Shown one piece after another: positions 1 to 20,844 of a stretch of DNA of 42,283 nt; the first letter of the stretch is position 1, and every line of letters starts with the position of its first letter. The stretch lies in the IMG/VR virus record IMGVR_UViG_3300043543_000392, positions 1-42,283 of that record; one strand, written 5' to 3'. This DNA comes from a virus. Below the pieces are notes generated by a model. That model ran no database searches. It had not been told where the DNA came from and saw only the letters and a program-made list of their open reading frames with translations. A program made the position numbers and the translations under genes.

Positions 1-2
1 CC

Positions 3-1013
3 TACCTCGACCGCCCCTTCATCAAGCGGCTGCCGGAGGAGATCCGGGAGGGAATCCGGAAGTACGGTATCCGCAACTGCTACCTGCTGACCCAAGCGCC
101 CACCGGTACGACCTCCCTCCTGGCTGGAGTGAACAGTGGGATCGAACCGTACTTCGACTTCGACTACCTGCGGAGCGACCGCACGGGCCAGTACAGCGTG
201 ACGTCGCGCTGGGCCGACCTGTACTACTCGCCGAACCGGCCGGAGTGGCTCGTGGCCGCGAACGACATCACGCCCGAAGACCACGTGCGGGTGCAGGCCG
301 CGGCACAGCGGTACAACGACTCCTCCATCTCGAAGACGGTCAACGCCCCGAACTGGCACACGGTCGAGGACGTGAAGCGGCTGTACATGCTCGCCTACGA
401 CAGCGGGCTGAAGAGCATCAGCTACTACCGGGACGGTTCGCGGCAGGAGCAGGTGCTCTACCACAAGGATTCGGCGGCGAAGCCCCCGGCTGAGCCGGTG
501 GATCCGCAAGAGGCGATCCGCGCCGCGCAGGAACTACTGGCTAAGAACGGAATCCCGGTGAGGCGACGACTTCCGGATGAGCGGCAGTCCATCACCCACA
601 AGTTCCGCGTGGGCGAGCAGGAAGGGTACATGACCGTGGGGCTCTTCGAGGACGGGACGCCGGGGGAGCTATTTGTCCACGTCAGTAAAGAAGGGACGAC
701 GGTTAACGCTCTGTATGACGTCATTGCCATGCTGACGAGCTACGCGCTTCAGTACGGCGTGCCGCTTTCGTCTCTAGTCGAGAAGCTGTCAGGGGTCAAC
801 TTCGAGCCTTCCGGTATGACTAGCAATCCGGCTATCCCTACCGCTAGAAGTGTGGTAGACTATGTATTCCGTTGGATGGGATTGAAGTTCCTGAATGGAA
901 AAGGGAGGACGACTAGGTACACATCTGGCTATGCCTGCCCAGATTGCGGGGTTTTGCTGACCCCCTCCGATGGGTGCTATGCTTGTCGGGAGTGCGGATA
1001 CTCGAAGTGTTAG
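3..1013 (+). CDS. nrdJ: Class II (B12-dependent) ribonucleotide reductase, C-terminal part (5' end outside window)
   Basis: Reduces ribonucleotides to deoxyribonucleotides for phage DNA synthesis. The reading frame is open from base 3, so the start lies upstream of the window; the first ATG inside (129) is internal. The visible part has the reductase barrel motif TQAPTGTTSLLAGVNSGIEP, a later stretch SGLKSISYYRDGSR, and a C-terminal Cys cluster (CPDCG, then CYACRECGYSKC), the zinc/thiol tail typical of adenosylcobalamin-dependent NrdJ. The final TAG is followed by the AGGAGG of thyX, so the two are probably co-transcribed. Codon use is strongly GC-rich up to about base 650 and then becomes mixed, like the rest of the window. 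Family is certain; class II rests on the Cys tail and the absence of a partner subunit in view. Confidence 0.93.
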   Translation, partial: YLDRPFIKRLPEEIREGIRKYGIRNCYLLTQAPTGTTSLLAGVNSGIEPYFDFDYLRSDRTGQYSVTSRWADLYYSPNRPEWLVAANDITPEDHVRVQAAAQRYNDSSISKTVNAPNWHTVEDVKRLYMLAYDSGLKSISYYRDGSRQEQVLYHKDSAAKPPAEPVDPQEAIRAAQELLAKNGIPVRRRLPDERQSITHKFRVGEQEGYMTVGLFEDGTPGELFVHVSKEGTTVNALYDVIAMLTSYALQYGVPLSSLVEKLSGVNFEPSGMTSNPAIPTARSVVDYVFRWMGLKFLNGKGRTTRYTSGYACPDCGVLLTPSDGCYACRECGYSKC

Positions 1014-3022: not shown

Positions 3023-3621
3023 AAGCTCAGGTTATAGCTCTGTATCTACGAGGGTTCTCCGAAAAAGAGATCGCTAAAGAAGTGGGAGTGGCTCCCAAAA
3101 CCATCGCCAATATATTGGACGGCCACCGTGCTGTTGTGGCTCAGTATGCTTCTTCTTTCCTTCTCGAAGACTTGTTTGCAATACGTGACCGAGCCTGGGA
3201 GTGGGCAATAGAAGTAGATAAGCTTCGGGAGGAGCTTCTTGCTACTTCCCCAGACGACCCCCAGTACGATGACTTACAACAGCGTTTTACCATGGTCATG
3301 GCGGCCTACCGAGATTGGTGGGATAGGTATATGGGGGCATACTATCGGTTTATCGGAAAATCCGAAGGTACATCCACTGTGAACATAGATGCTCGGCAGC
3401 AAGTTCTTGTGGTTAACGCCGAGGATTTCTACAAGAACCTTCAGGATGTTCGTCGGGCTATCCTAGAGAAGAGCCCCGAAGCTGAGACCTTACTTGCTCT
3501 ACCGGATGGGGAGGGGATATCTGATTGGATTTCTACGTACGGGGAAGTGGTAACACCTGACGAGAAAGCAGAGCCCGCTACCTTCGAGCACACTCTAGAG
3601 GTCCTAGAAGAAGATGGGTAG
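2947..3621 (+). CDS. Terminase small subunit
   Basis: The DNA-recognition subunit of the packaging motor. It is 224 aa, with a basic N-terminus and a helix-turn-helix at about residues 27-62 ([20 protein letters not shown], then [10 protein letters not shown]), followed by long helices for oligomerisation and an acidic C-terminus. Position directly before the large terminase supports the call. The start lies 76 bases inside the HNH gene; ATG 2956 is a second option nine bases later. Neither has a Shine-Dalgarno sequence, so coupled translation is likely. The C-terminus overlaps terL by 8 bases. Confidence 0.8.
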
Positions 3622-5290
3622 AACGCTTACCCAAATGGATAAGCGGGGGCTCGTTCAGCCCTTCTCTTACGAAGAGCTGCAAATTATTAAAGCGGCTCAG
3701 TCCGACTTTTGGATTTTTCTTACAACTGTCTATGCCGCGTCTTTCTTGGACAAGGAGTTCCTTTACTCTAGTGGGGACTACCAACCGTTTAAGCTAGGGG
3801 CTCTCCATAAAGCCTGGGCAGAAATAGCGTCTAGATACCCACGCTGGTGCATACTCGCTCCACGGCTTCATCTCAAGAGTACAATCCTCGGACGTGGATA
3901 TGTATTCTGGCGTTTGTTTTCAGAAGGGTCCGATATAGACGCGCTTTATATTGGATATAAACGCCCTCTTGCAGAAGAGCACGTGGAGGCTCTTAAGCGC
4001 GATATCAAGAAGAACCCCTATTGCCGTCTGTGGGTAGATAACAATCCCCTGGCCAAAAGCGTGATAGACTTCACCGTCGATTTTGGCGAACAACGATCGG
4101 ATGGTACTCCCTATCAGTGGCGGGCCACGGTTGAGCCCGAGGGGATTCTTGCGGCGACACGCGGTCGTCACCCAAAGGTAGTCATCTGTGACGACATCCT
4201 TTCGGACTTTTCTAACCCGGCTAGCTCCGTAGAGTTGGCCCATATCAACGATATCTTCGATCGCGTGATTCTTTCTCTTCCGCCTCCGGGTGGTGTTCTT
4301 GGTGTGGTGGGTACACCTCAGTCCCTCAACGACGTTCTCCACCGGCTTAAGGATAACCCCAGCTTCTACTTTGCTCGTTTCCGAGCCGTCAAGGATTGGG
4401 AAAACGGTATAACGATCTGGCCGGAGATGTACGATATTGAACGTCTCCGGAAGATCCGAGCGGAGGTTGGTCCAGCCGCCTTTGAAGTTGAGTATCAGCT
4501 CTACCCGAGATCCGAAGTAGATACCTTTATAAAAAGCGAACATCTATCTGCATGCTTCGATCCTTCTCTTGAGCTTTATTTCCCAAGGGAGGGGGCAACG
4601 TTCCCCAACGAAGAGTCCTGGCCGATTGTGGGGGGAATGGACATCGGGAAGGACGTCCACCCATCCCACATCTCCTTCTTCGTCGTTACGCCAGACGACT
4701 GGATGGTGCAGGTATATCACGAGTTCCTCCACAAAATTGACTACACCACTCAGGTAAAAATAATTAACACCGCTATAGAGTACTTCAATCCAATCCGCTT
4801 CCATTTTGACTCAACTCGATCAGAGCTAGACGATCGGGGCCTTACGAAGAGAGCACGGGGCGTGAAGTTTAAAAAGAACCTGAAAGCTTCGATGGCTACT
4901 CTCCTAGAGAAAAGAATTGTGAACACTTATAACAAGCTCGTTCTTGGTATTGACACTGGACCCGGCATTCTCTTCGCTGGCTCTGCTGATTCGCCGCAGT
5001 TTCAGTCTATTCTTCAGATCAACAAGGAACTAAAAGCTAGGGGCGGGATAGAGGGACACGGAGATGCGTTTTGGAGCAACGCATTGGCTGTCTGGTCTTG
5101 GGACGTCGGACCTAAGTTTGTGAGCGTTGGCGACGCTAGTTTCGTTACCCGATCGACTCCGACAATGACGAGAATTTCTCTAAGCTGCGATCATGATTGG
5201 GTAGCGTATGAGATTGACCTTCCTTATTTACCTACTCAGGTACGAGAGAAGTGTCGGCACTGCGGTGCTGTGAGAAATAAGAAAGCATGA
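3614..5290 (+). CDS. terL: Terminase large subunit (ATPase and nuclease)
   Basis: Motor protein that pumps and cuts phage DNA during packaging. It has 558 aa. The N-terminal ATPase has an unusual Walker A, LAPRLHLKST (81-90), a Walker B VVICDD (189-194) and a coupling motif VVGTPQS (231-237). The C-terminal RNase H-like nuclease has the acidic residues D343 (GGMDIGKD), D399 (FHFDSTRS) and D484 (GHGDAFWSNA). The last 40 residues carry a Cys/His cluster (SCDHDW, CRHCG) that may bind zinc and is not part of the core family. It overlaps the small terminase at the start and the next gene by ATGA at the end. Confidence 0.95.
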   Translation: MGRTLTQMDKRGLVQPFSYEELQIIKAAQSDFWIFLTTVYAASFLDKEFLYSSGDYQPFKLGALHKAWAEIASRYPRWCILAPRLHLKSTILGRGYVFWRLFSEGSDIDALYIGYKRPLAEEHVEALKRDIKKNPYCRLWVDNNPLAKSVIDFTVDFGEQRSDGTPYQWRATVEPEGILAATRGRHPKVVICDDILSDFSNPASSVELAHINDIFDRVILSLPPPGGVLGVVGTPQSLNDVLHRLKDNPSFYFARFRAVKDWENGITIWPEMYDIERLRKIRAEVGPAAFEVEYQLYPRSEVDTFIKSEHLSACFDPSLELYFPREGATFPNEESWPIVGGMDIGKDVHPSHISFFVVTPDDWMVQVYHEFLHKIDYTTQVKIINTAIEYFNPIRFHFDSTRSELDDRGLTKRARGVKFKKNLKASMATLLEKRIVNTYNKLVLGIDTGPGILFAGSADSPQFQSILQINKELKARGGIEGHGDAFWSNALAVWSWDVGPKFVSVGDASFVTRSTPTMTRISLSCDHDWVAYEIDLPYLPTQVREKCRHCGAVRNKKA

Positions 5291-5790
5291 ATATCTGGCT
5301 ACCACCATCCTCCAAAATAGAGATCTTTCGGAGGTTTCTAGAGAAGAATGGTCTCGTCGACGCTCGTATTCACTTAACCGGCCGTTACGTAATAGCTTTC
5401 ACGCCCACCCAGGCTTTTGGGACGTCATATAAAGTTCCTAATCTTAAGCGCGTTGTCGAGGTGGCGCTAGAGGACCTTGAGCCTGGTCCCTCCGTGCCGG
5501 TTAGAGAGGTTGGAAAAGAGGAGGTGCCAAACGGGCATTTACTGGAATCTCTGTATACGCGTAACTATCGCAGACTACTAATAGACCACCTTGCCCCGCC
5601 TCTTTTGCGTCCTTCCGAAGCTCTTTTGGCGGTACTATTCGCATTAGAAGGGGGAGAATCGATCATAAGCATACAAAAACCGCCTTCCTCCAATCTACCC
5701 GTTCTAATTGGAGGACGAACGTGGTGGTCTTTGGTAATGCCTGTCCGCCCATTAGTCGCGGAGGCATACCTTCTCGACCGAGATCTTTAG
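5287..5790 (+). CDS. Hypothetical protein downstream of terminase
   Basis: A 167-aa protein translated by a 4-base ATGA overlap from terL. I do not recognise a family. The N-terminal half looks like an alpha/beta fold (IEIFRRFLEKNGLVDARI, then strands), and the C-terminal third is hydrophobic (SEALLAVLFALEGG) but without a convincing membrane segment. In most siphophages the portal gene would be here, but this protein is far too short and lacks portal features. It is the last forward gene before the reverse-strand island. Confidence 0.7.
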   Translation: MNIWLPPSSKIEIFRRFLEKNGLVDARIHLTGRYVIAFTPTQAFGTSYKVPNLKRVVEVALEDLEPGPSVPVREVGKEEVPNGHLLESLYTRNYRRLLIDHLAPPLLRPSEALLAVLFALEGGESIISIQKPPSSNLPVLIGGRTWWSLVMPVRPLVAEAYLLDRDL

Positions 5791-5859
5791 GGCTCAATGT
5801 CCGGCGAGGCGAGCTCCCTTCGTTGCTGGGGGCAAATTTCCTTCGGATCTGTGTATCGC

Positions 5860-6369
5860 TCAGGCCAGGGGCTGATCTCCGGACTCGTCGGGGTCTCGAT
5901 CTCTGGTTGGGTCCTGGTTGGCATGTTCTAACGCCCTTTTTATTGTAGCTTCATCTGTCTCCGGCTCTTCCTGAGAACCAAACCCTAATCCAACCTGTTC
6001 CTTGAAATGCAGTTCTCTCGCTGCTACGGCCAGTTTTTGGATTACGGTGGCTCCTACGGGAGAACCGTCTGACCATTTATCAGTATAACTTACATTGTGC
6101 AGCAAGGAAAGTATTTCTACTTGCGATAGTTGTATCTCTACCTCTTCAGGCGGCTCAGGCCCAAAGAATCGACCCAAATGGTAGAGCAGTTTGAACGCTA
6201 GCGCTGGAAAGCCAGGCGGACATTCCCACTCCTCCCTCTTTCTAGGTGTATCTACCTTACAAACTTCGACTAAATAGAACAACTGGCTTTTAGAGAGCTT
6301 TACTCCTACGTAGCAAGGGGTGGGTTCAAACCTGGGAATAGGATGGAGGTCATTCCACGATCTTTTCAT
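5860..6369 (-). CDS. Hypothetical protein, third gene of reverse-strand island
   Basis: A 169-aa protein read leftwards. It is soluble-looking, with two helical segments (LSKSQLFYLVEVCKVD; FPALAFKLLYHLGRFF) and a strongly acidic C-terminal tail rich in Asp, Glu, Arg and Pro. No family is recognised and no catalytic motif stands out. It begins 11 bases after the stop of the upstream 235-aa gene, so they share a transcript. It ends 70 bases from the convergent forward gene, and no clear stem-loop terminator was found between them. Function unknown. Confidence 0.7.
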   Translation of the reverse strand: MKRSWNDLHPIPRFEPTPCYVGVKLSKSQLFYLVEVCKVDTPRKREEWECPPGFPALAFKLLYHLGRFFGPEPPEEVEIQLSQVEILSLLHNVSYTDKWSDGSPVGATVIQKLAVAARELHFKEQVGLGFGSQEEPETDEATIKRALEHANQDPTRDRDPDESGDQPLA

Positions 6370-6380
6370 TACTTCCCCCG

Positions 6381-7088
6381 TTAGTAGGGGATAGAGAACG
6401 CCTCGTAAGACGGCGCGCTGCTATAGTTGTAATCCCTTATAGGGAAGTAGTCTGGATCCAGCGGTATTTCCTGTGCAAGGATATATCCTCTATTCCATAC
6501 TTCTCTCGTGATCCCCCAGTCGTAGAATAGCCGCCTTCTCCACTCCGCCATTAGTCTTTGGTACTTGAACGGCAACTGCGTGAGCGGTACGTGCGGTCGA
6601 TTGCGCGGCTCCCTAGCCAACTCCCGTTCCATGCCCCACACGACTAGACGTACGTGATCGTCTGACATAGGATCTATCCCCTCTGGAGGGGGGAACCACC
6701 TGTCGTTCGCCCAGGCGTCGACAATTTGGCGAATGGTTTCTACCAAATCGTCGGCTAAGTCCTGAAAGTAGTACGGGAGTTCGGCATTTACCTGGAACGC
6801 CCGAGTAGGTGGAATTGGTTGCCCGTCGTCTCCTATTGGAATTTCCGCGATACGTTCACTCGCGTTTGAAGACACGCTGGAGATTCGCAAGCCGGTGGTG
6901 GTCACTCTTTCCCGGAATTCTTTCCACTGTTGAATTACTCTCGGGCTCAGCTCTTCCATTTCTGGAATATCCACATCTCTTTCAATAACTTCAACCAAGG
7001 AAGGGATTTTCTCTAACACCGCAGCTGCGCCGGTTGTGGCTGCGGCTGCCCAGCGGAGTACCCTGAGTCGCCTGCCCCTAATGACCAT
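6381..7088 (-). CDS. Hypothetical protein, second gene of reverse-strand island
   Basis: A 235-aa protein. The N-terminus is basic and then hydrophobic (VLRWAAAATTGAAAVL, about 10-25), which could be a short membrane anchor or signal-like segment. The rest is soluble with many Trp, Pro and Arg residues (ANDRWFPPPEGIDP; RLMAEWRRRLFYDWG) and a Tyr-rich C-terminus. No family is recognised. The start overlaps the end of the upstream 81-aa gene by 11 bases, which points to translational coupling. It is part of a three-gene reverse transcription unit inside the forward late genes. Confidence 0.72.
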   Translation of the reverse strand: MVIRGRRLRVLRWAAAATTGAAAVLEKIPSLVEVIERDVDIPEMEELSPRVIQQWKEFRERVTTTGLRISSVSSNASERIAEIPIGDDGQPIPPTRAFQVNAELPYYFQDLADDLVETIRQIVDAWANDRWFPPPEGIDPMSDDHVRLVVWGMERELAREPRNRPHVPLTQLPFKYQRLMAEWRRRLFYDWGITREVWNRGYILAQEIPLDPDYFPIRDYNYSSAPSYEAFSIPY

Positions 7089-7323
7089 TGTTCCACTCCC
7101 TATCCACTATCATACCCCAGAATGGACCAAACAACACGGAACAGGTGCTTTTGTACATTTCTTCCTCTTCCTCGGTCAGATCAATAGTACCACGAGGCGT
7201 AAGGATGACCCTATCGCGCTGGACATAAGGGATGGCAGCAAGGGAAAGCAAATGCTCTACCTGCCCATGGTTGATTCGGCGCTTGATGAATAGACTTATA
7301 TCTCGGGGTCCGGCCAGGAGCAT
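7078..7323 (-). CDS. Hypothetical protein, first gene of reverse-strand island
   Basis: An 81-aa protein of unknown function with an acidic centre (LTEEEEEMY) and a hydrophobic patch near the C-terminus (CSVLFGPFWGMIV). The start is placed at 7323 and not at the upstream ATG 7344, because AGGAGGT lies about 10 bases before 7323 and would fall inside the longer reading frame. A TAGACG-17 bp-TACACT promoter-like pair lies just upstream on the same strand. It is the first gene of the island and overlaps the next gene by 11 bases. Confidence 0.68.
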   Translation of the reverse strand: MLLAGPRDISLFIKRRINHGQVEHLLSLAAIPYVQRDRVILTPRGTIDLTEEEEEMYKSTCSVLFGPFWGMIVDREWNNGH

Positions 7324-7338
7324 GCCTTTTCGACCTCC

Positions 7339-7374
7339 TTGCACCTCTGCATGCTAGTGTACTACGCTTGGGTT
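7339..7374 (+). promoter_or_regulatory. Candidate leaderless promoter for the zinc-ribbon gene and late operon
   Basis: TTGCAC (7339-7344), an 18-base spacer and TACGCT (7363-7368) are followed by only 6 bases before ATG 7375. No Shine-Dalgarno sequence is present, and transcription would start at about the ATG itself. This TANNNT-6/7-ATG arrangement is the known signature of leaderless genes. It overlaps the divergent reverse promoter candidate. The -35 match is weak. Confidence 0.45.
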
Positions 7375-7384: not shown

Positions 7385-7539
7385 GGAGTCGAGGGGCTGA
7401 AATCATATGCCCGTTCTGTAAGAGGCTCCTCTTCAGGACGGACTTGCCTCGCGGGCAGGCCTACTGCTCTCTTTGCAAAAGGTGGTTCGGCTGGGATATA
7501 TCTAAACCGAAATCGGAGAACCCAAGAGGTAGCAGATGA
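7375..7539 (+). CDS. Small zinc-ribbon protein
   Basis: A 54-aa protein with two Cys pairs, CPFC and CSLC, about 20 residues apart, the layout of a rubredoxin-like zinc ribbon. It probably binds DNA, RNA or a protein partner. The start is taken as ATG 7375, preceded by a TACGCT box and no ribosome binding site; a longer start at TTG 7339 is possible but adds a hydrophobic stretch unlike zinc-ribbon proteins. The stop overlaps the start of the phosphoesterase gene (ATGA), so they are probably translated together. Confidence 0.75.
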   Translation: MTSRSRGAEIICPFCKRLLFRTDLPRGQAYCSLCKRWFGWDISKPKSENPRGSR

Positions 7540-8843
7540 AATTCACGAAGGAGTCCCCTGCGTATCAGCGTCTCCTGGAATTGGGGAGACTGGGGTTATC
7601 AAACGAAGAAATTCACGCAGTCCTTCTCACAGAGTTTCCCGACCTCAAGGTAAGCGTTAAGACAGTCGCCAACCGCCTTCAAGAGGCGGGCATCAAGACG
7701 AGATCAGCTCTCGTCATCATTAAACCGGTCGAGCGCGAGGAAAGGCTTAGGCTCGATAAGGAAATCCAGCGTCTCAAGGATGAGAACGCACAGCTCCGTA
7801 AACAGGTAACCGAAGCGCTACGTGAGGCTAACTTCCGCGATGCCTTCCTCCAAGCCGTTCGCAGTGCTCTAGAGGCCTTGCCGCCTCTCCCGACTGACCC
7901 CGTGCCTTTGCCGAAGACGAAGGGGAAGCGGCAGGACGCGGTTCTGGCGATTTGTTGCCTTCACTTTGGAGAATACGTCAGTCCGGCGGAGATGGGCGGA
8001 TTTGGCGGATACGATATCGATCTAGCTTGTGCCCGTTGGCAGCTGTGTGTGGAGTCAGCCATCGACCTTCTCTGTCGTCACCATCAGGCGGAAGGAATAG
8101 AGACCCTATATGTCGTGGACCTAGGAGATAATATCTCCGGCATGATTCACGACGAATTAGCTGAGACTAACTCTCTTCCGATAGGAAGACAAGTTGTTTT
8201 GGCAGCCCACCTTCTTAGTCTAGGCATCAGAGATCTAGCCAGTGCCGTTCCCAAGGTAAAGTTCATAGGAGTTCCCGGAAATCACCCCCGTCTTTACCGT
8301 AAGCCTCGGTTTAAGAACAAGGCGGCTGATAACTTCGATACCCTGGTCTATGAACAGATTGCGCTTGAGTGTTCCCGTCTAAGGAACGTAGAGGTTCACG
8401 TATCACCATCGTTCTTCCACATTCAAAATATTCGCGGGTTTAACTTTTGGTTTGCTCACGGAGATAACATCCGAGGCTGGGCCGGGATACCTTACTACGG
8501 ATTCGATCGTGCCGAGGCTAGATACGGAGAGTTTCTATCTCGGTCTCAACTATCTATTGACTACTGGGTTTGGGGAAACTTCCACACTGCCGCAGCTACC
8601 CAGAAGCCTCGCGGTGCAAGAATTATGACAGGGTCCTTTAAGGGGCCGGACGAGTTTGCTCTAGGAGCTATACACACCGGTAGCGATCCTATTCAGGTAC
8701 TGTTCGGTGTGCATGAAGATAGAGGCAGGACGTTCCACTACGATATCAATCTTGCGAGAGCAGATCCGAGAGTCCATAATAGATATCTGTTCCCGACCGA
8801 TTCTTCGCTTCTTTCCCTCGCTAAAGAGGCCGGATTGCTATAA
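7536..8843 (+). CDS. Calcineurin-like metallophosphoesterase with N-terminal HTH and coiled coil
   Basis: A 435-aa two-part protein. Residues 1-60 look like a helix-turn-helix (LSNEEIHAVL, VSVKTVANRLQEAGI), followed by a coiled coil at about 65-115 (RLRLDKEIQRLKDENAQLRK). The C-terminal 300 residues form a metallophosphoesterase: CCLHFGEY, DLGDNISG, GVPGNHPR, FAHGDN and GNFHTA match the five metal-binding blocks. The first Asp of block I (usually DxH) is Cys here, and block V is GNFH where GHxH is usual. Such enzymes cut nucleic acids or phosphate esters. The DNA-binding front end suggests a DNA nuclease or a processing factor; the substrate is unknown. ATG 7536 has AGAGGT about 10 bases upstream. 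Confidence 0.85.
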   Translation: MKFTKESPAYQRLLELGRLGLSNEEIHAVLLTEFPDLKVSVKTVANRLQEAGIKTRSALVIIKPVEREERLRLDKEIQRLKDENAQLRKQVTEALREANFRDAFLQAVRSALEALPPLPTDPVPLPKTKGKRQDAVLAICCLHFGEYVSPAEMGGFGGYDIDLACARWQLCVESAIDLLCRHHQAEGIETLYVVDLGDNISGMIHDELAETNSLPIGRQVVLAAHLLSLGIRDLASAVPKVKFIGVPGNHPRLYRKPRFKNKAADNFDTLVYEQIALECSRLRNVEVHVSPSFFHIQNIRGFNFWFAHGDNIRGWAGIPYYGFDRAEARYGEFLSRSQLSIDYWVWGNFHTAAATQKPRGARIMTGSFKGPDEFALGAIHTGSDPIQVLFGVHEDRGRTFHYDINLARADPRVHNRYLFPTDSSLLSLAKEAGLL

Positions 8844-8851
8844 TAGCTTAT
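8836..8851 (+). promoter_or_regulatory. Extended -10 promoter giving a leaderless GTG gene
   Basis: TGCTATAAT (8836-8844) is a perfect extended -10 element (TG, one base, TATAAT). The GTG start codon of the next gene begins 8 bases after it, exactly where transcription would start, and no ribosome binding site is present. No convincing -35 is seen, as is usual for extended -10 promoters. Confidence 0.6.
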
Positions 8852-9310
8852 GTGGCTAGACCGATAACCCCGACGAAGATTTATAGAGCGGCGGTTGGCG
8901 CTCTTAGGCTATCCGGGCAGGTGGCGTTTCAGAAAAGTCAACAACGTGTCCCTGTTAGGACAGGAAGACTTAAGGCTTCTGGGCGCTACCGGACTGTACC
9001 GGGGGGCTTTACGATTTCCTATCGCACTCCCTACGCAGCCAGAATAGAGTTTGGTATCCGTCCCGGCCGAACGATTAACGTTCGGAGACACCGCTATCGC
9101 GTTCCGCCCGGAACAGTCGTGACCTCGGGCGGGAAGAAGAGAACGATTAAAGCTGGGTATCGCTATCGCGGTCCATATTCCTATGTGACTAAAGGACAGG
9201 CGGGAAGGTACTACCTTACTTCCTCCTTGCTGGAGGAGCTGTCGCAGTTCAGCGAACGATTCTTGAGGAATTTGGCCGACTTGGGCCTTCGACCTAAGAG
9301 GGGTAGGTAG
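8852..9310 (+). CDS. HK97 gp10-like head-tail joining protein
   Basis: A 152-aa protein with the gp10 family pattern: RVPVRTGRLKASGRYR (about 29-44), PYAARIEFG (near 68-76) and a C-terminal segment YYLTSSLLEEL. gp10-like proteins sit at the neck between head and tail. The family normally lies after the connector gene downstream of the capsid; here it is 12 kb before the capsid. It is strongly basic. The start is GTG 8852, the only reasonable start, sitting 7 bases behind a perfect TATAAT and without a ribosome binding site. Confidence 0.8.
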   Translation: MARPITPTKIYRAAVGALRLSGQVAFQKSQQRVPVRTGRLKASGRYRTVPGGFTISYRTPYAARIEFGIRPGRTINVRRHRYRVPPGTVVTSGGKKRTIKAGYRYRGPYSYVTKGQAGRYYLTSSLLEELSQFSERFLRNLADLGLRPKRGR

Positions 9311-9321
9311 GCCACAAGTCC

Positions 9322-9350
9322 TTGAAATAATGATAAATCTGTTCTAAAAT
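9322..9350 (+). promoter_or_regulatory. Strong sigma-70-type promoter
   Basis: TTGAAA (9322-9327), a 17-base spacer and TAAAAT (9345-9350). Each box matches 5 of 6 consensus bases, and the region is AT-rich in a mixed-composition genome. It lies in the 75-base gap before the 203-aa gene, whose AGAGGG ribosome binding site follows about 25 bases later. It is probably an internal promoter of the head gene block. Confidence 0.68.
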
Positions 9351-9385
9351 CTTGGCGGATAAATCTATTTTTAGAGGGCCGATCT

Positions 9386-9997
9386 ATGGCTAACGAAGGA
9401 TACCAGATGGCCCGTAAGGTGCGGGCGAAAAAATACCCCACCGTTCGCATTTCTCCTCGTCCGATGGACGGACGCCTAGCTAAGGCGCTCCGCGGTGACT
9501 TTGTTCACGTTGTTTCGGCCGAAAACGGTGGGGTGTACTTGGAGTTGTGGAGGAACGGAGAGAACAATTTGTACTACCTAAGCACTGGTGCGTCCCTAGC
9601 CCCCGCTCCTCTACCTCTCCAGAAAGGACCTCGTCTGGATCGAGCCCTCGACAGGTTCTTTGGTCTTCTTCTGTCACAAAAAGGCTCTCTTCGGAAAAGG
9701 CTTAAGAAGAGTAAAGAGGCTCCCTGTACGCCGTGTGCATACAGCGCTTTGGTGAAGGCTGTGCACGATATCAAGGCTCTCCTGAAGGGAGAGGGCTGGG
9801 AGCGCCTTCCGGAAGGCTGGGATAAAGAAAGCGTGAAGCAATATTGGACCTCCCTTACTCGGCGGAACGTGAAGAAGTGGGGTTTTACTGAATGTGTCGA
9901 GCGGATGAGTGGTCACGTGGATAATCCCGAAGCGTTTTGTGCTTCTGCCCATAAAGAGGCTCTTGGGCGATGGCCAGCGGAGGACCCGAAGGAGTAA
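9386..9997 (+). CDS. Hypothetical protein with C-terminal CV/PEAFC motif
   Basis: A 203-aa protein, basic overall. Residues 1-75 look beta-rich (FVHVVSAENGGVYLELWRNG). The middle has a CTPC pair. The last 40 residues carry FTECVERM then DNPEAFCASAHKEALGRWP, a module with two Cys separated by about 15 residues. A closely similar module opens the next gene. I know this module from phage head-region proteins of unknown function. The start ATG 9386 has AGAGGG 7 bases upstream and a strong promoter before it. Confidence 0.75.
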   Translation: MANEGYQMARKVRAKKYPTVRISPRPMDGRLAKALRGDFVHVVSAENGGVYLELWRNGENNLYYLSTGASLAPAPLPLQKGPRLDRALDRFFGLLLSQKGSLRKRLKKSKEAPCTPCAYSALVKAVHDIKALLKGEGWERLPEGWDKESVKQYWTSLTRRNVKKWGFTECVERMSGHVDNPEAFCASAHKEALGRWPAEDPKE

Positions 9998-10002
9998 CTA
10001 GC

Positions 10003-10719
10003 ATGCCGATGGGTAAGTATTCCAGCTTCGACGCTTGTGTGAAGGCTAATTCGGATAAGCGTGATCCGGAGGCTTATTGCGGGAAGATCTATTGGCAGAC
10101 CGAAGGCAAAAAGAAGCACAAAAAGGAAAATAAATCTAACAGCTTTGAAGTTAGCAATCCGCACGGGACTATGAGCATGTCTAATAGTGATGATGAGGTT
10201 CGCCTTCGCGTTCGCCTAGAAAAGCACGCTGGCCACAAGGTGCGAGTGGGGAATCGATCGTATCCCTCAGATAGAGTGCCTCACCATCACCACAAAAATT
10301 ATTGGCATGCTCTTAGACCGGTTCGTAAGGCGATTCATAGTGTTGTGGCCGAGCTGGGGGACGAGGAAAGCCCGGACGGTACTGTTAAAGACCAGCCCTA
10401 CGCGGTGGCCTTTGGTCCTGATAACTACAAAGACCTGATGAAGAAATGCGACGTCCTTATTGGGCGTCTTATGGGCCTCACCAACAAGGGAGCTACGAAG
10501 AAGCAATTTGGTTTCCCCAGTAACCTAGTCGATCATATTTCCCGTGCTCTGGCAGCGGTCCACGGGAAAGAAGTACTCAATCCCCGCTATGAGCAGGTGT
10601 GTAATCTTTTGCGGCAAGCCCTGGATCTCCTTACTGCTATAGAGAGGGAGGAAGAGTCGGCTCTGGGGGAGGCGATCACCGTTGTTACCGATCAACGGGC
10701 GCTTCTTGCGCAAAGCTGA
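10003..10719 (+). CDS. Hypothetical head-region protein with N-terminal CV/PEAYC motif
   Basis: A 238-aa protein. It begins with YSSFDACVKANSDK and RDPEAYCGKIYW, the same two-Cys module that ends the previous protein. Residues 35-90 are Lys/His-rich, including HHHH near residue 85. The second half is helical (YKDLMKKCDVLIGRLM; YEQVCNLLRQALDLL). The start is placed at ATG 10003 because AAGGAG lies 8 bases upstream; the in-frame ATG 9970 has no such site and would overlap the previous gene by 28 bases. Function unknown; context suggests head assembly. Confidence 0.72.
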   Translation: MPMGKYSSFDACVKANSDKRDPEAYCGKIYWQTEGKKKHKKENKSNSFEVSNPHGTMSMSNSDDEVRLRVRLEKHAGHKVRVGNRSYPSDRVPHHHHKNYWHALRPVRKAIHSVVAELGDEESPDGTVKDQPYAVAFGPDNYKDLMKKCDVLIGRLMGLTNKGATKKQFGFPSNLVDHISRALAAVHGKEVLNPRYEQVCNLLRQALDLLTAIEREEESALGEAITVVTDQRALLAQS

Positions 10720-10737
10720 GAATAACTTTATCCTCTC

Positions 10738-10751
10738 CGTAGTAGACTACG
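10738..10751. repeat. Short perfect inverted repeat, possible operator
   Basis: CGTAGTAGACTACG is two 6-base arms around a 2-base centre, in the 69-base gap between the 238-aa and 90-aa genes. The centre is too short for a stable RNA hairpin, so a protein-binding dyad is more plausible than a terminator. Chance occurrence cannot be excluded. Confidence 0.3.
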
Positions 10752-10788
10752 TAATTTCTGCCCTCAACAAATCGGAGGAGCAACAGGA

Positions 10789-11061
10789 ATGGGAATTTAT
10801 GATCAAGTGCCGGGCTATAACTACGGAGAGGGGAGCGGTCAAGGTCGAATGCAAAATCGACCGAGGTTCAGAATGATTGGTCGCAACACGGTTCGCGCTG
10901 GTATCTACGTTCTATGCAATCGTCCTTTGGACGATCACTTTTTTATTGATGATAAATGGCGGTGTCGTACCTGGGGACGTTGTAGGAAATGTGGCTTCCC
11001 CCTAGATGACCACCAAGGCTGGCAAGGCACGAAATTGACATGTCCTCCCATCACCTTCTGA
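10789..11061 (+). CDS. Small zinc-binding-like protein with internal repeat
   Basis: A 90-aa protein. The N-terminus is Gly/Tyr/Arg-rich. From residue 40 it has two copies of a short motif, CNRPLDDHF and CGFPLDDHQ, with further Cys residues (WRCRTWGRCRKCG and a final TCP). Five Cys and two His suggest a zinc knuckle duplicated in tandem. ATG 10789 has GGAGGAG at good spacing. The end overlaps the next gene by 22 bases. Function unknown; position suggests a head or packaging accessory role. Confidence 0.68.
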   Translation: MGIYDQVPGYNYGEGSGQGRMQNRPRFRMIGRNTVRAGIYVLCNRPLDDHFFIDDKWRCRTWGRCRKCGFPLDDHQGWQGTKLTCPPITF

Positions 11062-11948
11062 AAGAAGCTGGGGATGGCGCGGGCGGACCCGTAGTCGGGG
11101 CGGACGTTTATACGCCCGCCATCGGACCTGGCCGACGCAAGGTCAGCAAAAAGAAAATCTACGTAGATAACATTCAGGACGTCCCGCCTAGGTACAGACC
11201 AAGGCGGGGTCCTCGCGGTGGGATTTATTACGACCCCGCGCAAGATCGCGCAGAGCAAGGCCTAGGGCGGGAGCCTGAAGCATTACCGCGTCTTCTTCCG
11301 AGCAAAGAGGACATACACCGATTTGGACTGGGCGGTAAATATGCGATTTTTAGGGTGAGGGGAGGGAGCACGAAAGTATTCATCCCGGCAGAGGACGTAG
11401 AAGAAGGGAAGCACGATGTTACTAGGATTCTAGCTAAGCTCCCTCCTCGTGCGAGGATTGTATTCCGCATGGTGGTTCCTAACGTTTTGTGGAAGAGCGG
11501 GTTTATCGGACAAGAACACGCTTACATTCAGCATCGTCCGGAGCTGATGATCGTAAGCAATCAGCTCCTAGATCTAGCCGATGAGGCTATAGTACGCATT
11601 GTACTCCACGCTATGGGCCACTTTCTGCTACAAGAAGTCAGAAAGTCTTATCCAAGTATGGCCATCTATGCCAAGCAGATATGGGAAAAGTGGCAGTCGA
11701 TAGAGAAGGCTTTGGACGGAATAGACGTTCGGTATTCCCTTATCGGAACTGAACTTATCCCAGGCGGGCTCGGTGTTCTTCTGAAAGGATATGCTCCTCG
11801 CAGCGATATAGCGTCCCGAACCTTCGACGAGTATTTTGCAGAATCCTGCGTAGAGTACTTCATCGATCCAGATGTGGTGCCAGAGCGTTTGAGATCTGTT
11901 CTTGAATCTCTTGAGCGGAATATTGCCAATGTCAGAAAGAGACAATAA
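11040..11948 (+). CDS. Degenerate zincin-like head morphogenesis protein
   Basis: A 302-aa protein. Residues 1-35 are low-complexity. Around residues 54-65 the motif RRGPRGGIYYDP occurs, a stretch common in phage head morphogenesis proteins. Residues 190-206 read VRIVLHAMGHFLLQEVR, which aligns with the HExxH helix of metalloproteases but has Ala where the catalytic Glu should be. Downstream FDEYFAESCVEYFIDP would supply a third ligand or Glu. A structural zincin-like fold or an enzyme with altered chemistry are both possible. Overlaps both neighbours by about 20 bases. Confidence 0.7.
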   Translation: MSSHHLLKEAGDGAGGPVVGADVYTPAIGPGRRKVSKKKIYVDNIQDVPPRYRPRRGPRGGIYYDPAQDRAEQGLGREPEALPRLLPSKEDIHRFGLGGKYAIFRVRGGSTKVFIPAEDVEEGKHDVTRILAKLPPRARIVFRMVVPNVLWKSGFIGQEHAYIQHRPELMIVSNQLLDLADEAIVRIVLHAMGHFLLQEVRKSYPSMAIYAKQIWEKWQSIEKALDGIDVRYSLIGTELIPGGLGVLLKGYAPRSDIASRTFDEYFAESCVEYFIDPDVVPERLRSVLESLERNIANVRKRQ

Positions 11949-12108
11949 GCGCAAGGTTAAGGTAGTCCGCTCCTGGCTAGCGGGAGACGGAAGGGATATC
12001 GGCCCGTCTACCGGCCAGGGGAAGATCGCTATCGTTGCGATCTATGATCAGGAAACAGGAAATCTAATTACTGAGTCCATTGAAGCATATCATCGCCATG
12101 GCGCATGA
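11929..12108 (+). CDS. Small hypothetical protein
   Basis: A 59-aa protein with a basic N-terminus (SERDNKRKVKVVRSW) and a beta hairpin-like second half (KIAIVAIYDQETGNLI). The start is taken at ATG 11929, which overlaps the previous gene by 20 bases, with GAGCGGA as a moderate ribosome binding site; the ATG at 11902 lies deeper in the previous gene. The end overlaps the protease start by 11 bases. No family recognised. Confidence 0.6.
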   Translation: MSERDNKRKVKVVRSWLAGDGRDIGPSTGQGKIAIVAIYDQETGNLITESIEAYHRHGA

Positions 12109-13234
12109 CCTTCCTTCTGAACTAGCTCACGAGGTTGTCCCCCAATGGTATCAGCCCTCCTACGGGACCCTGCGGGTGCTGGGCAACCGTGGGCTTAACG
12201 ATTCCTACACCGATCGTGAGATTATTATTGGAGGCTATGCCTCCCCGATGGTTATCGACCGAGAAAATCACTTGATTCTTAAAGAGGCCATGAAAAAGGA
12301 CCTGCCCAGGTTCCTGGCCAAGCCCGAGTATGCTAATGCGATGATCCTTCACACCAACGTTCAAGTCGGACAGGTAATTCCTGAATGGACTGATCCGGAG
12401 ACCGGAAAGGTTTATCGGACGGAAGTAGATGAAATTGGACTACATGTAGTTATCAGGCTTCGGACCGATCCCTATCGTCCAAAGATCGTGGACAAGGTCA
12501 TAGACAAGATTCTAGACGGAAGTTTACGTGCTTTTTCGATTTCTGGAGATGCTCCGCCGGAAAGTCGTCAGTATATCTGTGCGGATGGAACGTGCTTTTG
12601 GATCATTCCCGAAATCGAGTTCTATGAGATCACTATCTGCGAAGAGGGTGTTAACCAGGACGCCAAGATGGTAATCCTTTCCAAATCTTCTCCCGCGCAG
12701 GAGGAATGTGAAGCTTGTGAGGAGCTGAAGGATAAAATAGAGACTATTGCTGGTCACATCGGTGAAGAGCCCGTTGTCCAGATGCTGGAAGATACTGTTG
12801 ATGCGCGCATGCGTCTTGCGGCGGCTGGTAAGTCTGAGGAGGAACTAGTATCTGCTATAGAAAAGAGTGATCCAAACACCATACTTTTACCTTTTACAAA
12901 GAGCTTGGCTACTCCCGGCGGTAAGCAGGTAGCCGAGCTTGCCCAAAAGTACGCTAGATATTTGCGGAGAGGGGCTTCTCCAGAAGACGCTTATCATACC
13001 CTTCTTGAAGAAGGGCCTGATTGGTTTGGAACACGTAGTGAGATGTTCCGTAGATGGCTAGTTGTCGTCTATCGAGAAGGCCTGCCTATCCCCGCGGTGT
13101 ACTTGAGAATGGGTGGAGGTAAGGGCTACATTGATCGTACTATGACTGCGTGGGACTTACTGCAAACGTCTTTGTCTCCCATCGAGGCCGTACGTCGCGG
13201 ACCCGCGGCACAGCCTCATGCTAGAAAGAGGTAA
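12098..13234 (+). CDS. XkdF-like prohead protease
   Basis: Likely serine protease that processes scaffold and capsid during head maturation. The protein is 378 aa from ATG 12098. Residues 45-190 show the family pattern: IIIGGYASPMVIDRENHLI, a His in MILHTNVQVGQVI, GLHVVIRL, a Ser in GSLRAFSISGD, and FYEITICEEGVNQDAKMVI. His and Ser are the expected catalytic pair. The C-terminal half, starting with a CEACEEL pair, is helical and could act as a delivery or scaffold segment. TTG 12080 is an alternative start in the same frame. Proteases of this kind normally sit just before the scaffold and capsid; here a block of fibre genes intervenes. Confidence 0.75.
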   Translation: MAHDLPSELAHEVVPQWYQPSYGTLRVLGNRGLNDSYTDREIIIGGYASPMVIDRENHLILKEAMKKDLPRFLAKPEYANAMILHTNVQVGQVIPEWTDPETGKVYRTEVDEIGLHVVIRLRTDPYRPKIVDKVIDKILDGSLRAFSISGDAPPESRQYICADGTCFWIIPEIEFYEITICEEGVNQDAKMVILSKSSPAQEECEACEELKDKIETIAGHIGEEPVVQMLEDTVDARMRLAAAGKSEEELVSAIEKSDPNTILLPFTKSLATPGGKQVAELAQKYARYLRRGASPEDAYHTLLEEGPDWFGTRSEMFRRWLVVVYREGLPIPAVYLRMGGGKGYIDRTMTAWDLLQTSLSPIEAVRRGPAAQPHARKR

Positions 13235-13240
13235 GGAACC

Positions 13241-13459
13241 TTGCCCTCATCAGACTTTTCTTGGTACTCCTCTTTGACGTCGTTTATCCTGGAGCAAATT
13301 AAGAAGGCTAACTCCGATCGCCGGCGTATAGCCAACGCTTTGGTCTACGCCGAGCTAACGGGCCAGCTTCTTGCATTACAAGACGTTCTGGCCTATGTTC
13401 ACTCATTAGTTTACGGAGGTGAGTCGAATGAGCCGGAAGAAGGCCGCCCCCTCAACTAA
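13241..13459 (+). CDS. Small helical protein
   Basis: A 72-aa protein, mostly helical (SLTSFILEQIKKANSDRRRI; ALVYAELTGQLLALQDVLAYV) with an acidic end. The TTG start at 13241 has TAAGGA 3 bases upstream plus AGAGG further up, so the start is only moderately supported. It overlaps the HAD gene by 32 bases. Function unknown. Confidence 0.55.
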   Translation: MPSSDFSWYSSLTSFILEQIKKANSDRRRIANALVYAELTGQLLALQDVLAYVHSLVYGGESNEPEEGRPLN

Positions 13460-14081
13460 TCTAATCTTCTGTGACATTGACGGAATTATCGCGGACTTCT
13501 CCTTGGAGTTTACGAGGATGGCCGCGATTTATTACAAGACCCCAGTCATAAGTACTCCGGATGTTCAGGATTGGTGGTACTCCGACCTGGGTTTGAGCGA
13601 GGAACAATGTCGCAAGATAATGGAAAGGATTAGTAACACCCTCAACTTCTGGAGGAAGGTCCCCCCGCTTCCCGAAGGGCTCTCTGGAATAATGCGTATA
13701 CTCCAGGTCAGCCCAGTTGTATTCTTTACATCTCGGTTTCCAACCATTGGAGACTCGGTCTGGACTCAGACGGTATCTTGGTTTCAGATCCATGGCATAC
13801 AAGAGCCGGTTCTTTTAGTTGCCCAAAACTCTATCTTTCCGCACCCACTGCAGCGTCCTACAAAGTCAGAACTGGTCGAAGTCTGGAGGCCGTGGTTGGT
13901 TATAGAAGACAACCCGTATGAGCTGGAAGCGCTGAGCGCTATCAACAAAAATAACTCGTTTATCCTTTGGGCCTACGATCGGGCGTACAACCGAGACGCT
14001 CCGGCTAACGAGCGAGGATCTATGACTAACCTGCTAGAATTCCTGGGTTTGGGGGATGATCGCCGTGAGGATGTCTCTTGA
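13428..14081 (+). CDS. HAD-superfamily 5'-nucleotidase-like phosphatase
   Basis: A 217-aa HAD hydrolase. Motif I is FCDIDGIIADF (D16 and D18), motif II FFTSRFP (near 100), a Lys in TKSELVE for motif III, and VIEDNPYE for motif IV. The pattern resembles 5'(3')-deoxyribonucleotidases, which dephosphorylate dNMPs. ATG 13428 has GGAGGTG about 8 bases upstream; an in-frame GTG at 13419 overlaps that site and is rejected. In a phage with its own dNTP enzymes, removal of unwanted dNMPs is a reasonable job, but the substrate is inferred. Confidence 0.78.
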   Translation: MSRKKAAPSTNLIFCDIDGIIADFSLEFTRMAAIYYKTPVISTPDVQDWWYSDLGLSEEQCRKIMERISNTLNFWRKVPPLPEGLSGIMRILQVSPVVFFTSRFPTIGDSVWTQTVSWFQIHGIQEPVLLVAQNSIFPHPLQRPTKSELVEVWRPWLVIEDNPYELEALSAINKNNSFILWAYDRAYNRDAPANERGSMTNLLEFLGLGDDRREDVS

Positions 14082-14379
14082 AGAAAGAGAGGCGTATATC
14101 GAAAGGTTTTTGTGGGACAAATGTCTGCCTGTTCTGTCTGCGAAAGGCATAGATTACTCAGCCGGTAAGGCAGCGAACTCTAACTTCGACAGAATAGCGG
14201 AGGCTGTAGGGGTATCCAGATTCTCTGTATGGGCAGTGTTCTTCCAGAAGCACGTAGGTTCTATACTGTCCTACCTAAAGGGAGGAACCTCCGCCGAGCC
14301 TATTGACACAAGAATCGCCGATGCAATAAACTACCTTTTGATTCTTGCCTCGATGATTCACGAAGAAGGGGAAAGTTGA
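14056..14379 (+). CDS. Small helical protein, weak resemblance to nucleotide-modification-associated domain
   Basis: A 107-aa all-helical protein. Features are FDRIAEAVGVSRFSVWAVFF, a KHVGSIL segment and IDTRIADAINYLLILASM. The KH...RI.DaiNYL pattern is reminiscent of the small helical domain family found near nucleotide-metabolism genes in phages (DUF1599/Nmad1 type), but I cannot confirm membership. It overlaps the HAD nucleotidase by 26 bases and the next gene by one base, suggesting joint translation. ATG 14056 is used; ATG 14071 is an option. Confidence 0.6.
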   Translation: MIAVRMSLEEREAYIERFLWDKCLPVLSAKGIDYSAGKAANSNFDRIAEAVGVSRFSVWAVFFQKHVGSILSYLKGGTSAEPIDTRIADAINYLLILASMIHEEGES

Positions 14380-14864
14380 TGTCGCACGATCTCGGGAACT
14401 GGAAGGCTCGATGGGTCTGCCGCAAGTGGAACTGTGAAGACGACTTTGTTGCCGGGAAGGATCCGGACGAAGAAATCGTCGTTGAGGGTAATATTCTGAC
14501 CACGGCCGGGATTAATAAGCTTTGGAACCTTGTGGTCGGTGGGGCTAGCGATTACTTCAACTCCTCCAACTCGTACATCGGGGTGGGCGACTCTACTACT
14601 GCCGAGAACGCCAGCCAAACCGACCTGCAGGCTACGACTAACAAGTTCCGAAAGGTAGTCGATAGCGGCTATCCGCAAATTAGCGGCAACCTTATTCGCT
14701 TCCAAGCCACGTTTGGTTCTAGCGAAGCCAACTTTGCTTGGAACGAAGCTGGTGTGTTCAACGCAGCGACCGGTGGAACGATGCTAAACCGGAAGGTCGT
14801 ATCGCTGGGTACTAAGTCCTCGGGCGCGACCTGGTCGTTGGTTGTGGAAATTACCATCACGTAG
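14379..14864 (+). CDS. Tail fibre-type structural protein
   Basis: A 161-aa protein that opens the fibre block. It contains NILTTAGINKLWNLVVGG, SSNSYIGVGDSTTAEN and WNEAGVFNAATGGTMLNR, a pattern common in short phage proteins next to tail fibres and receptor-binding proteins; the fold is expected to be beta-rich. The N-terminus is Trp/Cys-rich (WVCRKWNC). ATG 14379 shares its A with the previous stop TGA and has GGGGAAAG upstream. Role in host attachment is inferred from similarity and position. Confidence 0.68.
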   Translation: MSHDLGNWKARWVCRKWNCEDDFVAGKDPDEEIVVEGNILTTAGINKLWNLVVGGASDYFNSSNSYIGVGDSTTAENASQTDLQATTNKFRKVVDSGYPQISGNLIRFQATFGSSEANFAWNEAGVFNAATGGTMLNRKVVSLGTKSSGATWSLVVEITIT

Positions 14865-14876
14865 TAGAGTCGGTCC

Positions 14877-16451
14877 ATGCCGACGTTCAAGGAACCCCTG
14901 GAAGTCCAGGATCGGGCTATTATTCTATCCCGTACTGGACTTCGTCTTTTGTTGATCGATAGCGAGGCTCGTCAGCTAAGGTGGGCTGGGCGAATGACCG
15001 TGGGAGGCATTCACAGCCCACACCCGGCAGCGGTACTGGACGTTAGTAAATCCCAAAAAGCTATTTTTCTTCCTCTTCTAACTACTGCCGCTCGGAACAG
15101 TCTTCCCAACCCTCAAACTGGGATGTTGATCTATAACGTAACCACTGGACAGGTGGAGGTTTACCAGGCTGGTGCTTGGCAGGCTCTGGGATCTGGAGGA
15201 GGAGGAGGCCCGTCTATTACGTTTCAGGAAGACGGCGCTGATTTAGCTGCCCGGCCAAAGGTGAATTTTGGTTCCGGGATCGTTGCTTCAGATAATTCTG
15301 CCAACAATAGAACAGACGTTGAAGCAGACTATGGTATCTCTGCGGATATTCAATCAGTTGGATCTTCTAATCAAGCGGGATCCTCTCCGCGAGTTGCCCG
15401 GGCAGACCACGTCCACGCTCTCCCGCCGGTTCTGGACAGCAACGCGCGTGTTGCAATTCGTCAATCAGGGACGACGATAGGTACAAGGAGGGCTATCAAT
15501 TTTCTTGCTGGCCCAAACGTCGCTTTGAATATATCTGACGATAGCACGAACGAGGAGGTAGACGTTGAAATCTCTGCTAGCGGCTCTGGCCTCACTATCT
15601 ACGAAGACGGCACCCCTTTAACGCCAAGGGGGGGCCTGAACTTTGGTGACGGCGTCGTCGCGTCAGACGACGGCGTCAATAACAGAACGAACGTAAACAT
15701 CGATTATGGTAGCACGGCGGAGGTACAGCCAGTCAGCGGTTCTGCTAATGCTGGCACGTCCCTCAGACTTGCGCGTATAGATCACGTCCACCCCGTTCCG
15801 AATACACTGGATAGTAATGCGCGAGTTCAGGTTAAGAATAATGGAGCCGCTGTAGGCACCCGCCGAGCTATAAACTTCATCGCTGGCAGTAACGTCACAC
15901 TTTCTATATCCGATGATGCTTCCAATGAAGAGGTGGACGTAACGATTTCTGCCGCCGGCGGTGGGGGTGGCAGTGACCCAAGTACCTTTATTCTTCGCGG
16001 CTTGTTGGCGGACCGCCCCACGCCGTCCATGGCAGGAAGGCTCTACTGGGCCTATGACGTCGGTGTGTTATACAGAGATAGTGGCAGCGCCTGGCAGACG
16101 TACTCGGATGGGCTGCATCACATGGTGTGGGTCTTCTCTGGACCGCTTGCAGTGACAGCCGGTATGATACGGCTGCGTCCCAACCAGCCGGGCACGATTC
16201 TTGGCGTTAGGTGCTCAGCCGGGACAGCTCCGGCGGGTAGCAGTATAATAGTTGACGTCAAGAAAAATAACTCTACTATTTTTCCTGCCAGCCCTAAACC
16301 AAACGTCCCCGCCGGGTCCAATGACGGGAGCTTAGCGACCCCAGATGTGACTTCGTTTTCCGCTGGAGATATATTCACCTGTGATATAACCCAGGTAGGA
16401 TCTTCTAACCCGGGATCGGATCTAGTGGTAACACTTTTTTGGGTGATCTGA
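14877..16451 (+). CDS. Tail fibre protein with two tandem repeats
   Basis: A 524-aa fibre. Residues about 110-235 and 238-360 are two copies of one module: ITFQEDGADL / LTIYEDGTPL, VNFGSGIVASD / LNFGDGVVASD, ARADHVHALPP / ARIDHVHPVPN, then LDSNARV in both, and GTRRAINFLAG / GTRRAINFIAG. A Gly-rich linker leads to a C-terminal domain of about 160 residues (ILRGLLADRPTPSMAGRLYW onward) that looks like a beta-sandwich tip. DHVHP motifs are typical of phage fibre collar domains and may bind metal. The N-terminal 100 residues resemble an attachment domain (FLPLLTTAARNSLPNPQTGM). It probably forms trimers. Confidence 0.8.
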   Translation: MPTFKEPLEVQDRAIILSRTGLRLLLIDSEARQLRWAGRMTVGGIHSPHPAAVLDVSKSQKAIFLPLLTTAARNSLPNPQTGMLIYNVTTGQVEVYQAGAWQALGSGGGGGPSITFQEDGADLAARPKVNFGSGIVASDNSANNRTDVEADYGISADIQSVGSSNQAGSSPRVARADHVHALPPVLDSNARVAIRQSGTTIGTRRAINFLAGPNVALNISDDSTNEEVDVEISASGSGLTIYEDGTPLTPRGGLNFGDGVVASDDGVNNRTNVNIDYGSTAEVQPVSGSANAGTSLRLARIDHVHPVPNTLDSNARVQVKNNGAAVGTRRAINFIAGSNVTLSISDDASNEEVDVTISAAGGGGGSDPSTFILRGLLADRPTPSMAGRLYWAYDVGVLYRDSGSAWQTYSDGLHHMVWVFSGPLAVTAGMIRLRPNQPGTILGVRCSAGTAPAGSSIIVDVKKNNSTIFPASPKPNVPAGSNDGSLATPDVTSFSAGDIFTCDITQVGSSNPGSDLVVTLFWVI

Positions 16452-16453
16452 CC

Positions 16454-17470
16454 ATGTCCTCGCGATCTCGATACTATATAGAATATCCAGCCTGGACCGA
16501 CTTTGTCCTAAGCCTTTCGGATATCAGCCTTAACGACTCTGACAATGCCGTTGCCTGGATTCTCCCTCCGCTTGCTCAAGGGGATTCTATAGGAGGCCTT
16601 AGGGTATTCGTCAGCACCCGGGTAGGATCTCCTCCTAGTTATAGGATCGCGTTTACCACCAACCCTTTTACGTGGCCCTCTTCTGTTCCTACGGGGTACA
16701 ACGGGTCTTCCCCGGAATTGTTTAGTCCTCCATCTAGTACTGGATGGTTTTCCATTAACCTCACTACTCCAATCTCTGTTCAAAGCTCTGATGACGTAAT
16801 TTACGCAATAGTATTTCCTGGACCTACCCCTCCTAATACGTCCAATTACATAGCTGTTCGTAGGTCGATGTCTGGTTACTCGTTGAAGGGGTATTCCTAC
16901 TCCTATAGCTATACCACATTGTGGTTGTCTGCTAGCCCTCCCAGTAGCACTAACACGATGGCGCCTATAGTCAACGGAAGTTACATAGATATCGGTGCAA
17001 ATGGAGTGAGCTCACAGAGTGCTAGTAGTACTACCGAAGACGGAGTGAGGTTCTCCCTCCCGTTTTCTGCATCGTGTATTGGCGTGAGTCTTCGGACCTC
17101 GTACACCACCGACCAGACTGTTTCTGTTACAGCCTCCCTGTATGACGATGCTGATAATATCCTTCGCCAGACTAGTCTTAGCAACTACCGTATACGGGAT
17201 ATACTATTCGTATGCTGGCCAAGTCCAATAAACCTTAGTGCTTATACGTGGTATAGACTAGGGTTTGTAACCTCTGTGCTCAGAACCTCCTACTATGCTG
17301 TATTTAGTAACTACGATGCTATGAGGAATATGCTCAACGGTTTTGCCTCTGATTATATCCGCCGTCCTGCCGGAGGAGGTAGCTGGACTACTGTTCAGTA
17401 CGCTGGCCTTCCTGTAACATTACTTTTGTCCAATGTAAATATAGGCACTCAATTCGGATTCTTGGGGTAA
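16454..17470 (+). CDS. Tail fibre or receptor-binding protein, beta-sandwich type
   Basis: A 338-aa protein rich in Ser, Thr, Tyr and Pro with regular beta-strand periodicity, likely two beta-sandwich domains (about 1-165 and 175-338). It has no recognised catalytic motif. The start is ATG 16454, three bases after the previous stop; a TTG at 16439 in frame would overlap the fibre gene. The composition and the position between other fibre genes support an external tail role; the specific ligand is unknown. Confidence 0.65.
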   Translation: MSSRSRYYIEYPAWTDFVLSLSDISLNDSDNAVAWILPPLAQGDSIGGLRVFVSTRVGSPPSYRIAFTTNPFTWPSSVPTGYNGSSPELFSPPSSTGWFSINLTTPISVQSSDDVIYAIVFPGPTPPNTSNYIAVRRSMSGYSLKGYSYSYSYTTLWLSASPPSSTNTMAPIVNGSYIDIGANGVSSQSASSTTEDGVRFSLPFSASCIGVSLRTSYTTDQTVSVTASLYDDADNILRQTSLSNYRIRDILFVCWPSPINLSAYTWYRLGFVTSVLRTSYYAVFSNYDAMRNMLNGFASDYIRRPAGGGSWTTVQYAGLPVTLLLSNVNIGTQFGFLG

Positions 17471-17473
17471 ATC

Positions 17474-18166: not shown

Positions 18167-18178
18167 CAAGATGCGCGC

Positions 18179-19993: not shown

Positions 19994-19997
19994 AACA

Positions 19998-20372: not shown

Positions 20373-20374
20373 CT

Positions 20375-20542: not shown

Positions 20543-20543
20543 A

Positions 20544-20783: not shown

Positions 20784-20808
20784 CTTGTGCCAAAGATCGT
20801 AAGAAAAT
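20780..20808 (+). promoter_or_regulatory. Candidate promoter before scaffold and capsid genes
   Basis: TTGACT (20780-20785), a 17-base spacer and GAAAAT (20803-20808). The -35 matches 5 of 6 and the -10 matches 4 of 6. It overlaps the stop codon of the membrane protein gene and leaves a 5' untranslated leader of about 30 bases. A separate promoter for the most abundant virion protein would make sense. Confidence 0.45.
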
Positions 20809-20844
20809 TCACCGTGAAACCCTTCTAAGTTTGAGGACACTAGT

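Follow-up and report, generated by a model that had tools for sequence, protein, structure and literature searches.

A reverse-strand island in the late region of the window, the 42,283-nucleotide stretch of viral DNA analysed here (IMG/VR record IMGVR_UViG_3300043543_000392), carries three genes, A, B and C, which form a conserved, mobile cassette common to phages and bacterial chromosomes. The preliminary description of this DNA had suspected an accessory module, and a survey of phages for the block bears this out: it is patchily present and occupies variable sites in otherwise unrelated phages, as expected of a moron, stands alone on chromosomes and matches no virion family, rather than being a set of standard virion proteins that all relatives retain at this position.

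Organisation of the island

The three reverse reading frames flanked by rightward genes that were initially described are real, since 95% of the stretch 5791-7344 is covered by minus-strand reading frames of at least 80 aa, a coverage reached by none of 1000 dinucleotide shuffles (mean 10%). Together with the short gene B, the unit extends over 5787-7323 on the minus strand and comprises four genes rather than three (Table 1). In the window the cassette members follow an unrelated 81-aa gene, are ordered C-A-B and are inverted relative to the late genes. The 81-aa gene lies outside the conserved cassette and has a homologue solely in a 99% identical IMG/VR contig from sample 3300043544, in which the same block is present; the two sequences differ by too few changes for a Ka/Ks ratio. 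The proposal of a tightly overlapping operon holds for the 81-aa and 235-aa genes (11 nt of overlap) and for the 169-aa gene and gene B (65 nt) but not for the 235-aa and 169-aa genes, which are separated by 11 nt. Gene B shares those 65 nt with the end of gene A and another 4 nt with the end of the rightward 167-aa gene.

Table 1. Genes of the island and of its left flank in the window
Feature	Position	Strand	Remarks
Terminase large subunit (TerL)	3614..5290	+	phrog_38, E 6e-31; nearest recognised late gene to the left
167-aa gene	5287..5790	+	No family match; separates TerL from the island and is convergent with the latter
Gene B, 45-aa peptide MPTRTQPEIETPTSPEISPWPERYTDPKEICPQQRRELASPDIEP	5787..5924	-	Cassette member, overlooked in the preliminary description
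Gene A, 169 aa	5860..6369	-	Cassette member
Gene C, 235 aa	6381..7088	-	Cassette member
81-aa gene	7078..7323	-	First gene of the island; ATG at 7323; 88 aa from upstream GTG

The strong ribosome binding site attributed to the island is present as AAGGAGGT before the ATG of the 81-aa gene and is the sole copy of this 8-mer on both strands of the window. The suggestion that the island has a promoter of its own, and with it self-regulation, gained no support: the promoter-like site has 8 of 12 matches, a score that random 120-nt stretches drawn from the window reach in 32% of cases. A scan of the minus strand of the island for consensus promoters, the type within reach of such a scan, returned 0 sites, and the repeats found flanking the island are short and imperfect.

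Conservation and structure of A, B and C

The island proteins were said to belong to no recognised family, and searches of Pfam, PHROGs, NCBIfam and PADLOC agree in giving no convincing match, as do searches of PDB sequences. PADLOC returned stray weak matches and no defence family for A, C and the 81-aa protein of the window and for 19 C proteins, and in PHROGs the A and C families matched no structural phage (virion) family. None of the libraries tried has a name for the A, B or C family. Their relationship to the copies found elsewhere is well defined: profiles from which the window copy had been excluded each ranked its counterpart top of the 809 ORFs in the window, at E values of 3.5e-35 for C, 2.2e-21 for B and 2.7e-6 for A, and a profile of chromosomal A likewise has the 169-aa ORF as its best match among all ORFs of the window.

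B is the part of the cassette with the highest conservation. This Pro/Thr-rich 45-aa peptide contains one conserved Cys and is 40-73% identical to the window copy, compared with 26-36% for C and 13-24% for A; its conserved C-terminal half reads PWPERYTDPxxICPQQRRExASPDVEP. Such conservation suggests that B probably interacts with a near-constant partner. C has a conserved core at approximately residues 100-218 with the invariant residues V149, R155, E156, E160, L172, R178, E182, R184, R185 and W198, and its AlphaFold2 model is helical with a confident core (pLDDT 75). The model of A is an alpha/beta structure of mixed strands and helices (pLDDT 82). Fold searches at E <= 0.001 gave no match in the PDB for A or C and none in BFVD for A. 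A resemblance of A to BIRC6 was considered and is not trusted, the PDB fold matches having E values of 0.05 and worse and TM scores of 0.38-0.40.

Tracing the host

With single proteins as queries, IMG/VR, GTDB contigs and phage records yielded only the 99% relative. The breakthrough came from the use of the phage ribonucleotide reductase as a host tracer, followed by a search for the 235-aa protein in the class of Bacterium HR29. The reductase (window 1-1013; L003 5241-7439) is 87% identical to the enzyme of Bacterium HR29 and 70-83% identical, over the best segment, to those of Chloroflexi/Dehalococcoidia metagenome-assembled genomes and one unclassified bacterium, identities that point to a host in or near this group. 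The G+C content of the first 1 kb of the window is 61%, compared with 49-56% for most of the window, and this difference, together with the 87% identity to HR29, suggests that the reductase was likely acquired from a host.

In the Chloroflexota class to which Bacterium HR29 belongs, the 235-aa query detected C in 14 of 393 genomes (up to E 2.6e-23). Phylum-wide samples of Chloroflexota, which were not shown to include any known carrier, yielded matches in 0 of 400 genomes, and a sample of Actinomycetota yielded one marginal match (E 8.7e-4). A scan of viral contigs with A gave 0 matches and missed the carriers of A that were detected via C and B.

The cassette in other phages

Four further carrier phages emerged from IMG/VR when C and B were used as queries: G741, G742, G935 and G936. 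Each has the genes in the order A-B-C and collinear with the late genes. In G741 (60 kb) and G935 (32 kb; its sample also yielded the 99% relative) the cassette lies between TerL and a gene in the position of the portal, whereas it follows the endolysin in G742 (52 kb, with an integrase) and precedes it in G936 (36.5 kb, G+C 34%). The arrangement in G741 spans the contig ends and assumes a circular or permuted genome. G741 and G935 have TerL and the portal-position gene in common (E about 1e-75 and 1e-106, respectively); the latter is without a name in PHROGs and is called portal by position and appearance. Placing the island where a portal gene would normally be thus proved apt, and no portal was recognised in the window itself, including by comparison with the portal-position genes of the other phages. 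Apart from a common helicase match to G742, the window and the four phages share no detectable sequence but the cassette. The five phages represent four unrelated backbones. By eye, the tail region of G936 also contains a row of similar-looking genes, each approximately 140 aa in length (20656-22703, L118).

The cassette on bacterial chromosomes

A and B accompany C in all 14 chromosomes in which C was found. Chromosomal A is approximately 130-145 aa and B approximately 45 aa long, both encoded upstream of C, and the order in chromosome G009 is B-C-A. Many copies of A and B have a good ribosome-binding site in front, and in most copies the start of C is no more than a few bases from the end of B. 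All three genes are under purifying selection on the chromosomes where this was tested, with pN/pS values of 0.12-0.45 in two groups of chromosomes and B the lowest in each.

The chromosomal copies, carried by relatives of the probable host, are operons that stand alone among varied housekeeping neighbours which, by eye, include genes for a sulfatase, a thiolase, a luciferase-like oxidoreductase and an acyl-CoA dehydrogenase, and the same inspection recognised no phage genes and noted no defence island around them. Within the family that includes HR29 and G281, 8 of 38 genomes carry the cassette. In three genomes (G199, G002 and G003) the cassette and the ortholog of a gene that neighbours it in G281 are on separate contigs, which implies that its location differs within one family. 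A comparison with empty sites around the G281 copy found no synteny to compare, and no tRNA-linked insertion was seen near most of the chromosomal copies. In a tree of A, B and C combined, phage and chromosomal copies are interspersed and a single phage clade is rejected (AU p = 0.007); the window and G009 copies form long branches. Genome G036 has a homologue of A (L101 7369-7761, minus strand) beside which no B or C was found, approximately 3 kb from a gene that by eye looks to be of the DUF262/GmrS type (L101 2355-4547, minus strand).

Possible functions of the cassette

A set of genes that is kept intact in unrelated phages and in bacterial chromosomes often has a function in the conflict between them. 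Host takeover, exclusion or anti-defence, the roles initially considered for the island, are all possible. The reading tentatively preferred here, which falls somewhat short of an even chance, is that the cassette is a mobile accessory, moron-like module whose benefit lies in interference with competing phages; this would explain its retention by both phages and bacteria, and that retention fits a role in phage-phage competition. In the biochemistry that we infer for it, B would be short and flexible and would bind, through its conserved C-terminal half, a partner that evolves slowly, which may be a host protein or else C itself at its conserved core. A and C would produce or control this interaction, and the most likely benefit would be superinfection exclusion or an anti-phage activity exerted late in infection. 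Speaking against this reading are the lack of a defence family match for the cassette proteins, the chromosomal surroundings, in which no defence island was noted by eye, and the long branch of the window copy. More specifically, and more doubtfully, the cassette may represent an undescribed three-component system of phages and Chloroflexota for phage-phage competition in which the near-invariant, disordered B is the effector or switch under the control of A and C.

The late-region position and the collinearity in other phages fit a late phage function such as takeover or lysis control equally well. Made late in infection, the cassette could promote host takeover or time lysis, with B blocking or recruiting a conserved host protein and thereby favouring virion production or setting the moment of lysis, and with the chromosomal copies being domesticated. 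All five phages carry it in the late region, in two of them adjoining the endolysin, and the conservation of B suggests a conserved partner; however, stand-alone chromosomal copies under purifying selection would need a separate benefit and A and B are without an evident membrane segment, and on balance this explanation is rather unlikely. That A, B and C instead assist the assembly of the head, neck or packaging apparatus would be in keeping with the lineage of G741 and G935, where the cassette is collinear and flanked by TerL and the portal-position gene, but is decidedly improbable in view of the differing positions in other phages, the inverted orientation in the window, chromosomal copies without phage neighbours and the lack of a virion family match.

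Two further explanations take the small size of B as their starting point. If C (or A) were toxic and neutralised by B, the cassette would be a toxin-antitoxin or addiction unit, consistent with the translation of B directly before C in most copies and with the invariant charged residues of C. Antitoxins usually diverge together with their toxins, whereas B is the most conserved part of the cassette, and the searches matched neither families nor folds of toxins or antitoxins; such a unit is improbable. Likewise, a 45-aa, Pro/Thr-rich peptide that has a single conserved Cys and is encoded next to two larger proteins recalls a RiPP-like locus in which A and C process B as a precursor peptide. 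The C-terminal part of RiPP precursors is usually the variable core, but it is here that B is conserved, and A and C match no modification enzyme, protease or transporter, so that this origin is very improbable.

Interference with competing phages, the preferred reading, has precedents in that late-region genes which interfere with other phages are known, such as the phage-borne defence Tab (PMC10884400). Phage morons and anti-phage cargo, including Tab and the P2/P4 hotspots (PMC9122126), are likewise small, patchy insertions at variable sites of phages. The cassette differs from Tab and the P2/P4 cargo in being also host-borne, in having no sequence match to a defence family and in consisting of three genes including a peptide, a comparison that does not extend in detail to gene order and chromosomal copies. 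The Tai antiviral family is reported to be encoded in chromosomal loci, prophages and satellites (PMC11364771), and its likeness to the cassette, which occurs in phages and chromosomes, is one of distribution only. Should the exclusion reading be true, the little-studied phages of thermophilic Chloroflexota would carry in the cassette a new defence or counter-defence module. The B motif ICPQQ[RK]RExASPDVxP offers a short handle with which to find the system and fish out its target.

Other features of the window

The late genes of the window follow an unusual order (7536-23034, plus strand) in which phosphoesterase/exonuclease-like, neck, protease and fibre-like genes precede the gene for the major capsid protein, which is located 16 kb downstream of TerL. 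Two genes at 39472-40914 (minus strand) resemble, by eye only, a holin-like protein and a GH25-like lysin, the latter candidate having no match among PDB sequences. A DNA polymerase A is encoded at 35508-38009 (plus strand) with a domain of the uracil-DNA-glycosylase superfamily fused to its N-terminus, and this fusion is probably widespread, as other phages have proteins whose best alignments span 98-99% of its length at 30-32% identity. The window also contains one tRNA-Ile with the anticodon TAT (41256-41331, plus strand).
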